Assembly (NCBI GenBank): GCA_009885955.1
Contig: VFJS01000016.1
Coordinates: forward strand, 1-64,000
DNA length: 64,000 nucleotides
Reading direction: 5' to 3'
From: Spirochaetia bacterium
GTDB lineage: Bacteria > Spirochaetota > UBA4802 > UBA5550
The notes below the pieces were generated by a model. The model did no database searches and was not told where the DNA came from. It saw only the letters and a program-made list of their open reading frames with translations. The stretch's first letter is position 1. Each line of letters begins with the position of its first letter. This document shows, one piece after another, positions 28,543 through 61,482 of this stretch. The position numbers were made by a program, and so were the translations under genes.

Positions 28543-29004
28543 CTATCCATATTTTTTGATTTCTCTCGCCATGTCCATTTTAGCATCGCGGTCACGGATG
28601 GTTTTTCTCTTGTCGTATTGGGCCTTGCCCTTCCCCAGTCCCAGGAGTATTTTAGCCTTTCCGTTTTTGAAATAAATCTTAAGCGGAACCAGTGTGTAGC
28701 CTTTTTCAGCCAGTTTCCCATGGAGCCTTTTAATTTCCATTTTTTTCAGTAAAAGTTTCCTGTCACGGTCAGGTTCATGGTTAAACCGGTTTCCCATGTC
28801 ATAGGGGGATATATTAAGGCCCACGATAAAAGCTTCGCCATTAATAATCCTTGCATAGGATTCCTGAATACTTACTTTTTTCTGCCTCAGTGATTTAACC
28901 TCTGTCCCTTTGAGTACCATTCCCGCTTCAAAGGTATCAATTATTTCATAGTTAAACCGCGCTTTTTTATTTACGATAACATCTTTAAACTGGTCTTTCA
29001 TCAA
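28543..29004 (-). CDS. smpB: SsrA-binding protein SmpB
   Basis: SmpB carries tmRNA into stalled ribosomes for trans-translation. The 153-residue protein has the expected beta-barrel sequence: NKKARFNYEIIDTFEAGMVLKGTEVKSLR, SYARIINGEAFIVGLNISPYD, RKLLLKKMEIKRLHGKLAEKGYTLVPLKIYF and the C-terminal basic tail KGKAQYDKRKTIRDRDAKMDMAREIKKYG, which enters the decoding centre. AAGGA precedes the first of two adjacent ATGs. No tmRNA gene is visible nearby. Confidence 0.96.
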   Translation of the reverse strand: MMKDQFKDVIVNKKARFNYEIIDTFEAGMVLKGTEVKSLRQKKVSIQESYARIINGEAFIVGLNISPYDMGNRFNHEPDRDRKLLLKKMEIKRLHGKLAEKGYTLVPLKIYFKNGKAKILLGLGKGKAQYDKRKTIRDRDAKMDMAREIKKYG

Positions 29005-29156: not shown

Positions 29157-30347
29157 TTAAAAATTAGCCTGGAATTTCAGTCCGAGTTTATCTTTAATGG
29201 CAAAATTGTTACTATGAACCCGCCACCAGGCCGGGGCTATATACAAGTTTTTTTCAAGGTAAAACATCAGGTTGGCATAGTATGATCGGGAAATGTCATC
29301 CTCTTTTTTTCCTGAGTTGCCGCTTGATACTTCACGGGAAAATCCGAAATTTATAGTACAAATACCGGCATCAAAGGAAAAATCTAGCCTGCCCCCAATT
29401 GATCTATCATCTATAATTGTTTTTTCATGAATTTCTGTATCTACATCATTTAAGCTTTTTACTCCCATGCTTCCGATATTTTTACCCCGGTAACCGTTAA
29501 AATTCATTGAGAAGTTGGAGATGGCAAATTTAATGCTCAGGGGTATCATGTATCCGGTTATCGATTTTCCATCAATCATGGTCAGGACATTGCTCAGAGC
29601 AGGGTCACTGTTTCCAGAACCTTTTTCAATGGTAAATTTCTGATATACAAAATGGAGATTAACCGAAACCGGCCCCATGGGTACTGTTATCCCGGCAGCC
29701 AGTTTCGGGAGGATATAATGAAAATTTTCACCGGGGATGAGTATAGGGCTTGCAATATTTCCCTGACTGTACCATGAAATATTTTCCTTCCCTGGTTTAA
29801 TCAGGTCCAGGTAAAAATTTTTGAATATGCTGATTTTAATCTGCGGTTGCCGGCCATCATAGGTCCCGGCATCCCAATAGCTCCCATCATCATCGGCAAC
29901 ATTTTTTGATGACTGATAGGTATAGGGAGTCCATGTCTGGCCGAAAATTATATTGAAGGGATTTAAGTTGTAACTGGCATAGAGATGCCTCAGGTAAACG
30001 CTATTACTTTCAGGATTACCGGATTGCTCTTGTGAATTTTCAGGGCTGAAGCCCAATTCAACCTTTCCCCGGACATTATTTATATTGCCGTTTAATCCCA
30101 TGCTGGCGCTGCCTGTTATAGGAAGGTCCTGCATATATTCCACACCGGAGTTGCCGTGCGCACCTGAGCCCGTATCACGGGAATAATTATTGTACCCGGC
30201 CCAAAGTTTTACCTGAAAATAGGGGGCTAAACCTTCTATAATTTTTGAATCCTGCGCGTTAATTTCAATTCTGAAAATAAAAATGGGAATGACCAGAAAA
30301 AGTATAAGAAGCTTTACCGGGTGGTTATTTTTTTGGTTCAAAATCAA
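29157..30347 (-). CDS. Outer-membrane beta-barrel protein
   Basis: 396 residues with a signal peptide ending near INAQD. The mature chain shows alternating hydrophobic strands and ends in aromatic Phe (LGLKFQANF), as outer-membrane barrels do. FGQTWTPYTYQSS and the many short strands recall DcaP-like or porin-like trimers, but the match is only by feel. Its start overlaps the 3' end of the beta-propeller-like gene (30325-31821) by 23 bases, so the two are coupled. A channel for small solutes is the likely role (inference). Confidence 0.75.
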   Translation of the reverse strand: MILNQKNNHPVKLLILFLVIPIFIFRIEINAQDSKIIEGLAPYFQVKLWAGYNNYSRDTGSGAHGNSGVEYMQDLPITGSASMGLNGNINNVRGKVELGFSPENSQEQSGNPESNSVYLRHLYASYNLNPFNIIFGQTWTPYTYQSSKNVADDDGSYWDAGTYDGRQPQIKISIFKNFYLDLIKPGKENISWYSQGNIASPILIPGENFHYILPKLAAGITVPMGPVSVNLHFVYQKFTIEKGSGNSDPALSNVLTMIDGKSITGYMIPLSIKFAISNFSMNFNGYRGKNIGSMGVKSLNDVDTEIHEKTIIDDRSIGGRLDFSFDAGICTINFGFSREVSSGNSGKKEDDISRSYYANLMFYLEKNLYIAPAWWRVHSNNFAIKDKLGLKFQANF

Positions 30348-31821
30348 TTAATGTAAGGGAATAATCGGAATATTTAAAAATTGCAAGTTTTGATTCCCTT
30401 TCATATTTCAATATGACAATTTCGTTTTCACTGTTATATGGCGTGAAGGTTATGTTACGAGGATTTGATTTTTTAATTTTCCAGAAATCAAGGGTGTCCC
30501 ATTTTTTTTTGCTCATATCAAAAATCATGAAAGAGCTCACGTAGTTTGAATCATACTCGGGTTTGAGTTTTACAAAAAAATGGCTGTTGCGGTAAAAGAC
30601 AGATGTTATGACTGTTCTTATTGACCCCATAAAGGTTTTAGGCATAAAGCGGATGATTGATTTAGGTTCAAAATGGTATATAGCATCTTTAGTTGCGATG
30701 AGGATGGAATCTTCGATTATTTCAATGTCAACAATATCAACAATGGCATCGGTAAACCATGAGTATATTCCCATGGTTCTATAGAGGGCATGATCCTCGG
30801 CCTTCTTGTCGCCGTAAAAGGTCCATACTTCATTGGTTTCGTTGCGCGTTGATTTTTTCTGTTTATTTTCCTTTTTTTCACCTTCAAGGGTTTTATTTTC
30901 TACTAATGCGCTTTTTTTATTATCTTTTTCTTCATTCTTTTCCCGGTAATCCTTTATGGCAATTTTTTTCGGCGTCTCTTCGTCATCGTCTTCGTCATCC
31001 TTTTTCTCTTCGATGATGACCTTTTTCTTTTTCTTTTTTCCATCGTACTGGAGCCTGGAAAGACCGGCTGGTGTGACGAACCAGACATTATCACCCTTGA
31101 ATCCCTCATCTTTTTTTTCAGCCCGCATTAAAGTAACAGAGCTGCTCCCCATCTGGGCGTTCGTCATATCAAAGTGGTCCCACTCGCCAGCCATGTTCAG
31201 GCGGGATACTCCCAGATCCATTGACTCTTCATAACGGAACCAGGTGTTCCCCCTGGCATCCACAACGACCTGTGCAACATGATTGGATTTAAGTTCCGAA
31301 GATTTATCATTATACTGGAGGCATTTTGCAGAGCTGGTTTCAAAATCGAATGTGCATTCTGTGGCCCCTGCGCCACCCCTGACCCGGTATGTGACAATGA
31401 GGCTTTTTTTTAAAGGATGCCAGGCTGCATTTCGTATAGTATCGGTTGTGAGCATTTCTTTTTTTATGGAGAGGTGGATTGTTTTTCCGTCAGATATCCT
31501 GATGGCGTATATGCCCTTATTCTCTGAAATAGCAAAAATAGTGTTGTTAAATGTATATACTGTCTTTATAATACCGTAATCTCCATTGTTCAGGGGGCCG
31601 GAAAAGTTAACTAAAGGGGGATTTCCTTTTATATAGGCCAGTTGGCCCTTCGATTTTCTGTCTATGGCAAGTATCAGGGAATTTTCTGCGATATACGAAG
31701 CATCCTTTATCTGGTTTGCTGTTGTGCAGAAATTATTATTAAACAGAAAAAACAGGAGAAAAAAAATAAAAAAAACCTTTCTCCCGCAAAGAGCGGAAGA
31801 AAGGTTTTTGAATGCTTTCAT
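30325..31821 (-). CDS. Secreted beta-propeller-like protein with a charged linker
   Basis: The ATG at 31821 is preferred over a TTG at 31842. About 498 residues. The signal peptide ends around NNNFC, a possible but weak lipobox. The chain has short repeated strand units as in propellers (GDYGIIKTVYTFNNTIFAISENKGIYAIRISDGKTI; GNTWFRYEESMDLGVSRLNMAGEWDHFDM; VWFVTPAGLSRLQYDGKK). Residues about 265-330 are a Lys/Glu/Asp-rich low-complexity linker. An intrinsic terminator hairpin lies within codons 5-17 (see terminator). The next gene, a barrel, overlaps it. Function unknown; sensing or assembly of the barrel is possible. Confidence 0.7.
   Translation of the reverse strand: MKAFKNLSSALCGRKVFFIFFLLFFLFNNNFCTTANQIKDASYIAENSLILAIDRKSKGQLAYIKGNPPLVNFSGPLNNGDYGIIKTVYTFNNTIFAISENKGIYAIRISDGKTIHLSIKKEMLTTDTIRNAAWHPLKKSLIVTYRVRGGAGATECTFDFETSSAKCLQYNDKSSELKSNHVAQVVVDARGNTWFRYEESMDLGVSRLNMAGEWDHFDMTNAQMGSSSVTLMRAEKKDEGFKGDNVWFVTPAGLSRLQYDGKKKKKKVIIEEKKDDEDDDEETPKKIAIKDYREKNEEKDNKKSALVENKTLEGEKKENKQKKSTRNETNEVWTFYGDKKAEDHALYRTMGIYSWFTDAIVDIVDIEIIEDSILIATKDAIYHFEPKSIIRFMPKTFMGSIRTVITSVFYRNSHFFVKLKPEYDSNYVSSFMIFDMSKKKWDTLDFWKIKKSNPRNITFTPYNSENEIVILKYERESKLAIFKYSDYSLTLIDFEPKK
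31761..31809 (-). terminator. Intrinsic terminator inside a coding start
   Basis: On the minus strand a stem of 17 pairs with one G-U wobble (AAAAACCTTTCTTCCGC, loop TCTTT, GCGGGAGAAAGGTTTTT) runs straight into a T-rich tract at 31770-31761. It sits about 48 bases after the stop of the barrel gene 31857-33086, so it would end that transcript. It also lies within the first codons of the 30325-31821 gene. Confidence 0.8.
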
Positions 31822-31856
31822 TTTGAAAAAATTAAACAACAATCAAATTTCGAAAG

Positions 31857-33086
31857 CTACATTTTTTTCTCGTCGTCAAATACGCCTGGATTTCCAAAGA
31901 TGTAAGCGACGTTAACTTCAGCTGCCCAACCGGCTGTTGCGTTACCAGTTACCAGATAAAGTCCATTAGTCAGGAAGGCTCTTGCCAGTTGAGCTTCAAG
32001 AGTCCAATGTCCCATTTTATACTGAAGTCCAAGTGTTCCAGCAGCATTTCCAGAATCAGTCAGCTGCTCGACCTTTGTAGCACCGGTAACTTTTGTTGTT
32101 ACATTCTGATCCCATGTCCTGTTTGCTCCAAGCCTCATGGTCATGTTCTTTGTAAGGTTGGCTTCTGCACCCATGACGAAATTTAAATAAGTTGCATCAA
32201 CAGCAGTTTTGCTGCCGGTGATTTTAGTTTCCTGACCGCGCATTTCATAGAGGAATCCAAAATATACCATTGAGTTTCCTGCGAATTTCATTTCATCAGT
32301 AAGACCAATGAGGGTTCTGTCTATGTTATATTTTACTTTGTTAGTTCCGAGTTTGTCGGCCCTGTCTATCAAGTTATACTTTAACCATACGTGTACGCTG
32401 TTAGTCTGGCTTAGAGCCATGTTGAAACGGGCTGTGACGTCGGTGTCGGAAGTTGATGCTTTATAAACGGTTCCTGCTGCTGTCGGAGCTGTTCCTTTCT
32501 GATCAAAGGCATAGTTGGTCATTTTGAATGCCACGTCGAAGTCCATTCCGCCGCCCAGATCCATGAAGAAACCAACCTGGTAGGTATCAACAGCTTTTTC
32601 ATTTGTTGTACCAGCTGTTGTATTTTTGTCCATCCTGTCAGCTGTTCCATACCTGAGGCCTACGCTCATGGGACCCATTTTATAGGATGCATTGACATTG
32701 TAGTTTTCCCTTACAGCCATGTTCGTTGAGTTCAGGGCTGTAGGTAATTGCTGAAAGTTGCCATAGGTTGCTGTACCGGCATCACCTATTCCAAGGGGAT
32801 ATCCGTTGGCGTTGATAACAATCATCAGATCATCCATCGGCTTCAACCATATACCACCTGTAGAAACTGCAGCTGATGTTTCATTAAAGGTGATAAGAGC
32901 AGGGAACTGTACATAATAAGCTGGATTAACAGTTGCATATGCAGTGTCCTTTTGAATCATCCAGTAGGTATCAGCACCCATACCCAAAGACTTCATTCTT
33001 GTTCCAGATGCATGAGAAGCGGTTACCCCGGCAATGATGAGAACCAGAGCAATTATAAATGTAGAAATTCTTAAAGAATTTTTCAT
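31857..33086 (-). CDS. Outer-membrane beta-barrel protein, probably abundant
   Basis: 409 residues. A signal peptide ends near SHASG. The rest is a beta-barrel of about 16 alternating strands (MDDLMIVINANGYPLGIG; SVGLRYGTADRMDK; YQVGFFMDLGGGMDFDVAFKMTNYAF; NSVHVWLKYNLIDR; AEANLTKNMTMRLGANRTWDQN; LGLQYKMGHWTLEAQLARAFL). Codon use and a very good ribosome site (GGAGG nine bases before ATG) point to high expression. The C-terminal tail FDDEKKM lacks the usual terminal Phe. A strong terminator follows, within the next gene. It has no known name to me; a spirochaete-type porin or surface barrel is the best guess. Confidence 0.75.
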   Translation of the reverse strand: MKNSLRISTFIIALVLIIAGVTASHASGTRMKSLGMGADTYWMIQKDTAYATVNPAYYVQFPALITFNETSAAVSTGGIWLKPMDDLMIVINANGYPLGIGDAGTATYGNFQQLPTALNSTNMAVRENYNVNASYKMGPMSVGLRYGTADRMDKNTTAGTTNEKAVDTYQVGFFMDLGGGMDFDVAFKMTNYAFDQKGTAPTAAGTVYKASTSDTDVTARFNMALSQTNSVHVWLKYNLIDRADKLGTNKVKYNIDRTLIGLTDEMKFAGNSMVYFGFLYEMRGQETKITGSKTAVDATYLNFVMGAEANLTKNMTMRLGANRTWDQNVTTKVTGATKVEQLTDSGNAAGTLGLQYKMGHWTLEAQLARAFLTNGLYLVTGNATAGWAAEVNVAYIFGNPGVFDDEKKM

Positions 33087-33528: not shown

Positions 33529-33670
33529 GATTTTAGGATTCTGTAATAATATGCCATTACATATTGTCGCAGGAATTGACTCTGAAAACGATAGGTATTA
33601 TATTATAACTGTGTATCAACCGGATACTAATATCTGGAATGATACATTCAGGGAAAGGAAAATAAAATGA
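33524..33670 (+). pseudogene. 5'-truncated DUF4258-type toxin gene
   Basis: Reading on from the htpG-like block, the frame gives SPILGFCNNMPLHIVAGID, then SENDRYYIITVYQPDTNIWND and a stop at 33668-33670. This is the C-terminal half of a DUF4258 (RelE-fold-like) protein. The N-terminal half is absent and replaced by the htpG fragment. Its stop overlaps the antitoxin start (ATGA). A 39-residue product from the ATG at 33551 could still be made but would lack the family's start. Confidence 0.75.
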
Positions 33671-33891
33671 AATGTGTTTTATGTAAAAATGGAGAAACAA
33701 AACCGGGGAAAGTTACAACAACTCTTCAAAGGGATGAAACCGTTATTGTTGTAAAAGAGGTGCCTGCCGATGTTTGTGAAAATTGCGGAGAATATTATAT
33801 CTCTCATGATATCACCGGGCAATTATTGTCAAAGGCGGAAGAGGCGGTAAAAAAAGGAGTGGAAATAGAAGTTTTTGAGTTTGTTGCTTAA
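33667..33891 (+). CDS. YgiT-type zinc-finger antitoxin (MqsA-like)
   Basis: 74 residues. Two CxxC pairs, at Cys3-Cys6 (MKCVLCK) and CENCGE, bind zinc, with GETKPGKVTTTLQRDETVIVVKEVPADVCENC between. This is the short YgiT/MqsA N-terminal domain without the C-terminal HTH, the form that pairs with DUF4258 toxins. It overlaps the broken toxin gene by four bases. Here the toxin half is degenerate while this half is intact. The stop is followed by a strong bidirectional terminator. Confidence 0.85.
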   Translation: MKCVLCKNGETKPGKVTTTLQRDETVIVVKEVPADVCENCGEYYISHDITGQLLSKAEEAVKKGVEIEVFEFVA

Positions 33892-61432: not shown

Positions 61433-61448
61433 CATGGATGTAAAAAAA

Positions 61449-61482
61449 ATCAGGCGGAATTTTTTCCGCCTGATTTTTTTTT
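61449..61482. terminator. Intrinsic terminator after the tRNAs
   Basis: AATCAGGCGGAA, loop TTTT, TTCCGCCTGATT, followed by T8. A-runs on the other side let it act for the convergent gene at 61493 as well. Confidence 0.92.

Follow-up and report, generated by a model that had tools for sequence, protein, structure and literature searches.

Terminators are normally looked for in intergenic DNA. The locus examined here raises the question of why two genera should keep one within a gene's 5' codons, where the RNA stem has been preserved together with the signal peptide that it overlaps. The window (a whole stretch of 64,000 nucleotides from a Spirochaetia bacterium) contains a gene for an outer-membrane-barrel-like protein, followed on the minus strand by a gene for a secreted beta-propeller-like protein and by a porin-like gene (Table 1). 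A hairpin with the appearance of a strong intrinsic terminator lies within the first codons of the second gene. Several points need to be settled for this hairpin, including whether it has the features of a terminator, to which gene it belongs, and how the propeller gene could be expressed past it.

Table 1. Features at the barrel-propeller junction, in positions of the window.
Feature	Position	Strand	Basis or details
Outer-membrane-barrel-like gene, upstream (409 aa; TAG stop 31859-31857)	31857..33086	-	ORF and orthologs
Weak stem pairing the propeller start codon with sequence just past the barrel stop	31815..31857	-	-9.4 kcal/mol, z -2.1 (segment chosen after the structure was seen)
Secreted beta-propeller protein gene, ATG 31821	30325..31821	-	ORF, gene caller and orthologs
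17-pair stem-loop of the intrinsic terminator, propeller codons 5-17	31771..31809	-	Sequence and fold
T-rich tract 3' of the stem, TTTATTTTTTTTCTCCTGT	31752..31770	-	Sequence; codes for the Phe-rich signal-peptide core
Porin-like gene that follows the propeller gene and overlaps its stop	29157..30347	-	ORF

The original prediction, a near-perfect 17-pair stem with a T-tract in codons 5-20, describes the hairpin correctly. Seven of the 17 pairs are G-C and one is G-U, the loop has five nucleotides and is followed, after the 3' arm, by TTTATTTTTTTT, and stem and T-tract together occupy codons 5 to about 20-21 of the 498 propeller codons. When folded alone, the hairpin reaches -25.9 kcal/mol (z -7.3), a value equalled by none of 200 shuffled sequences, and it ranks second in stability among the terminator-like stems across the 812 kb sampled from the genome. 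The distance to the stem is 47 nt from the barrel stop and 12 nt from the A of the propeller start codon. A stable stem-loop is thus placed directly before a U-tract and more than 30 bp past an upstream stop, as in intrinsic terminators, which agrees with the earlier claim that it is rightly positioned to end the barrel transcript; 3' ends are predicted at approximately 31770-31762. Termination of a plus-strand transcript was ruled out, because no T-tract lies directly on that side. No known riboswitch, leader or attenuator family was found in Rfam at the hairpin site. A weaker second hairpin (31787-31752, minus strand, -12.9 kcal/mol) was also observed, the 3' arm of which, GGAGAAA, pairs with TTTCTCC just past the U-tract.

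The start of the propeller gene determines whether its mRNA has to carry this element. ATG 31821 was also chosen by a home-made coding-potential gene caller, and the next in-frame start is codon 123, which lies within the conserved domain. A later start, which was part of a refuting case set out for the original prediction, was therefore ruled out from the sequence, every functional propeller mRNA contains the terminator, and the original prediction that propeller transcription must pass the hairpin is upheld. The predicted translated ORF overlaps the terminator, as in ribosome-dependent attenuators. The leader, MKAFKNLSSALCGRKVFFIFFLLFFLFNNNFC, matches the lipoprotein-like signal peptides of two orthologs, and Cys32 lies within 1-2 residues of their lipobox Cys in the alignment rather than in one column with it; the product is probably a lipoprotein. 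A beta-propeller fold is likewise probable, based on a marginal match to a PorZ propeller (E 0.003, below the curated cut-off), an all-beta model of low confidence (mean pLDDT 63), and Foldseek hits with low TM-scores, to BT4663 among other propellers. Residues ~260-330 (30831-31044, minus strand) form a low-complexity insertion rich in Lys, Glu and Asp, which is mostly missing in both orthologs. The porin-like gene presumably shares the read-through mRNA with the propeller gene.

The question of ownership was addressed with the two further barrel paralogs in the genome. In one of them (L007, 70% identical), the core TCTTCCGC....GCGGGAGAA recurs with T9 as a terminator 50 nt past the stop codon; no plus-strand gene lies over it, and the first long ORF beyond runs in the convergent direction. 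L008, the second paralog, lacks such a terminator. In the 812 kb sampled, the core stem was found only at the barrel gene and at L007, which rules out a generic repeated terminator element. The preferred reading is that the hairpin is an intrinsic terminator belonging to the barrel gene.

To examine how widely the layout is conserved, the propeller was searched in genomes of the family, order and class and in a sample of the phylum, in which full propellers were detected in G005 and G158 only, plus a fragment in G075. The contig scan placed these loci on JAKLIV010000035 ('Spirochaetes bacterium') for G005 and JAOUOS010000041 ('Spirochaetia bacterium') for G158. G005 belongs to the same family and another genus, and its propeller is ~31% identical. 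Its barrel and propeller genes are adjacent, and a 14-pair terminator is present in the signal-peptide codons of the propeller (MQMFFRNPQSKIPSLLREGIFFLILTITVGLSGGC). When this stem was anchored at its base on the 17-pair stem, five of the 14 pairs differed on both sides and all were still paired, in a register set by hand and not as a statistical test of covariation. The more distant G158 also keeps the gene pair (its barrel is 25% identical, E 1e-22), but the two genes lie 540 nt apart. The proposed check of whether orthologous signal peptides keep the hairpin is thus answered by its presence in G005 and by a G158 leader without a terminator, and since G158 keeps the pair nonetheless, propeller function does not depend on the overlap. 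The barrel stop precedes the stem by 47 nt in the window and by 38 nt in G005, and the stop of L007 precedes its stem by 50 nt, all above the 30 bp that full activity requires in Escherichia coli (PMC4824070). The distance from ATG to stem, in contrast, is 12 nt here versus 29 nt in G005; the stem therefore appears to be placed relative to the barrel gene. The overlap is known from two genomes, both draft assemblies, and an independent gain of the hairpin in each is possible. The same layout with a different sequence in a distant relative suggests a fixed volume control over a chance overlap.

A survey with one scanner (stems of dG <= -18 followed by a T-tract) was performed on 812 kb of the source genome, with 726 predicted genes. 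Sixteen strong terminator stems could be detected, including 14 intergenic, one antisense, and the propeller hairpin, the sole one to fall within 40 codons of a gene's start. In the family member G011 (400 kb, 333 genes), 17 were intergenic, one was antisense and none lay in 5' codons. These counts are lower bounds, given the strict scanner and home-made gene calls. No other case occurred among the 726 and 333 genes, giving no indication that such overlaps are a common habit of the genome or family. Terminator finders that drop coding hits would miss the propeller hairpin. No report matching a natural terminator inside the signal peptide of a downstream gene was found in the literature, the coverage of which was incomplete. 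Elsewhere in the window, positions 61445-61478 hold a strong, near-symmetric and apparently bidirectional terminator (-22 kcal/mol) with T-tracts on both strands.

We consider it probable that the barrel's native Rho-independent terminator, overlaid on the signal-peptide codons of the propeller, acts as a constitutive leaky attenuator that fixes a high barrel-to-propeller ratio. Under such a mechanism, most RNA polymerases leaving the barrel gene would halt in the U-tract, and a minority would read through to transcribe the propeller gene and probably also the porin-like gene, so that a constant intercistronic attenuation would hold the ratio high. Translation of the propeller would begin at ATG 31821 on the read-through mRNA, and the stem, which starts at +13 of this ORF, may also slow initiation. 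The sequences themselves show the anatomy, the matching stem at L007 and the layout kept in a second genus; termination, the level of read-through and its stoichiometric role are what we infer here, with measurements in E. coli as a guide. For the tR2 terminator, termination is maximal (~0.9) when the stem lies more than 30 bp past the upstream stop, and a translating ORF with its AUG 30 bp before the terminator cuts termination by only ~10%, because a newly initiating ribosome fails to catch up within the first 100 bp (PMC4824070). These measurements make a leaky terminator likelier than a switch, and, assuming that the E. coli figures hold in a spirochaete, the hairpin should end most barrel transcripts and pass a minority. 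The codon bias of the barrel, propeller and porin genes is alike (~85th percentile), with no sign of an expression difference between barrel and propeller. The earlier description of the barrel as highly expressed finds no confirmation in these values. Terminator and signal peptide are compatible within one stretch of DNA, since the Lys/Arg n-region of a signal peptide is naturally encoded by A-rich codons and the Phe/Leu core after it by U-rich ones. The case suggests that terminators can be accommodated in signal-peptide codons, and that overlaps of this kind can determine the expression ratios of adjacent envelope genes.

The original prediction had gone further, proposing that ribosomes starting at 31821 would keep the stem from folding and that translation of the leader could serve as an antitermination switch. 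A strong effect of this kind is unsupported in view of the ~10% figure, since an initiating ribosome would arrive too late (PMC4824070). A more specific version, in which ribosomes finishing the barrel gene restart at ATG 31821 and enter the stem while the polymerase is still in the U-tract, so that barrel translation licenses propeller transcription, is regarded as unlikely. Only 12 nt separate the ATG from the stem, a ribosome coming off the barrel stop could arrive at the ATG sooner than one newly recruited, and ribosomes are known to suppress pyrL-type terminators (PMC5021804). No Shine-Dalgarno motif precedes the propeller start, and such a motif was found before 183 of 311 sampled genes versus 42 of 311 in a control segment, the former count being somewhat inflated because the gene caller favours starts with it; the G005 start, on the other hand, has an AAGG motif, and its ATG is more distant from the stem. 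Moreover, in both genomes a weak stem pairs the propeller start with sequence at or just past the end of the barrel gene, so that a ribosome terminating on the barrel could open that start. Translational coupling by this stem is possible, but its z-scores (-2.1 here; -2.5 in G005, at -10.9 kcal/mol) are marginal and come from segments picked after the structure had been seen. Neither a pause hairpin nor a competing antiterminator is evident; the single-sequence MFE fold contained no pairing that competes with the terminator, and the start stem and terminator coexist in it. It is accordingly doubtful that reinitiating ribosomes open the conserved terminator carried by the signal-peptide codons and so couple the translation of one envelope protein to the transcription of the next.

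A frozen overlap with no regulatory role appears quite unlikely. In this scenario, the propeller start would have been captured upstream of the barrel terminator in an ancestor of the family, with both parts now fixed in place and with read-through being incidental or the propeller supply low and unimportant, which fits both the paralog terminator that exists independently of any propeller and the absence of the overlap from G158. Against it, the stems are intact in two genera despite their divergence, implying that the terminator at least is kept, and the propeller and its signal peptide are kept as well, so that some read-through must be useful. Very improbable is a hairpin that terminates nothing in vivo and serves RNA stability (3' end protection of a processed barrel mRNA) or slows initiation, for although the stem starts at the edge of the initiation footprint, the long U-tract right after it here, in the paralog and in G005 is a canonical termination signature that a stability stem would not need.

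Comparison with known systems helps to place the leaky terminator favoured here. Among intrinsic terminators that are read through inside or between operons is the one upstream of vtrB in Vibrio parahaemolyticus; as proposed for our locus, an upstream operon ends at an intrinsic terminator and read-through feeds the downstream gene, but that terminator is described as following the upstream operon (PMC10971746), whereas ours is embedded in the opening codons of the propeller ORF. The pyrBI/pyrL attenuator also places an intrinsic terminator within a brief translated segment close to a start codon. However, pyrL serves as a leader ORF whose pause sites couple ribosome and polymerase (PMC4824070), whereas the translated segment at the propeller is the signal peptide of a functional protein, with a fold that revealed neither a pause nor an antiterminator structure. 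The brfA gene of Bacillus subtilis, like arfA of E. coli, is read from non-stop mRNA, in the case of brfA through an intrinsic terminator in the coding sequence. The brfA terminator lies close to the 3' end of the brfA ORF, yielding a nearly complete protein under trans-translation control (PMC6881298), while the propeller terminator is at the 5' end of its ORF and would end the RNA of the upstream gene. A non-stop regulator of the brfA/arfA type was therefore rejected, the terminator lying in codons 5-20 of 498. Nearly the same geometry is offered by the E. coli tR2 construct W48, in which the terminator lies past the upstream stop and 30 bp after a downstream AUG; this construct is synthetic (PMC4824070), whereas the propeller overlap is natural and occurs in two genera.

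On a terminated barrel mRNA, ribosomes initiating at 31821 would meet no stop codon and run off after ~20 codons, and would therefore need ribosome rescue (SmpB/tmRNA). The rescue factor gene smpB is located at 28543-29004 on the minus strand, two genes downstream of the propeller start. A promoter-like site is present at 29095-29067, and smpB may have its own promoter. A link between smpB and the overlap is speculative, because smpB is not adjacent to the propeller gene in G005.

Further analysis of the surrounding genes placed htpG near the barrel-propeller pair in both genomes, with an orientation relative to the pair that differs between them. In G005, an 18-pair hairpin (locus L009, 5151-5110, minus strand) lies between the convergent propeller and htpG genes. 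In the window, a small protein with two CxxC motifs is encoded on the opposite strand between the barrel gene and htpG (33667-33891, plus strand), which we take to resemble zinc-finger antitoxins of the YgiT/MqsA type.
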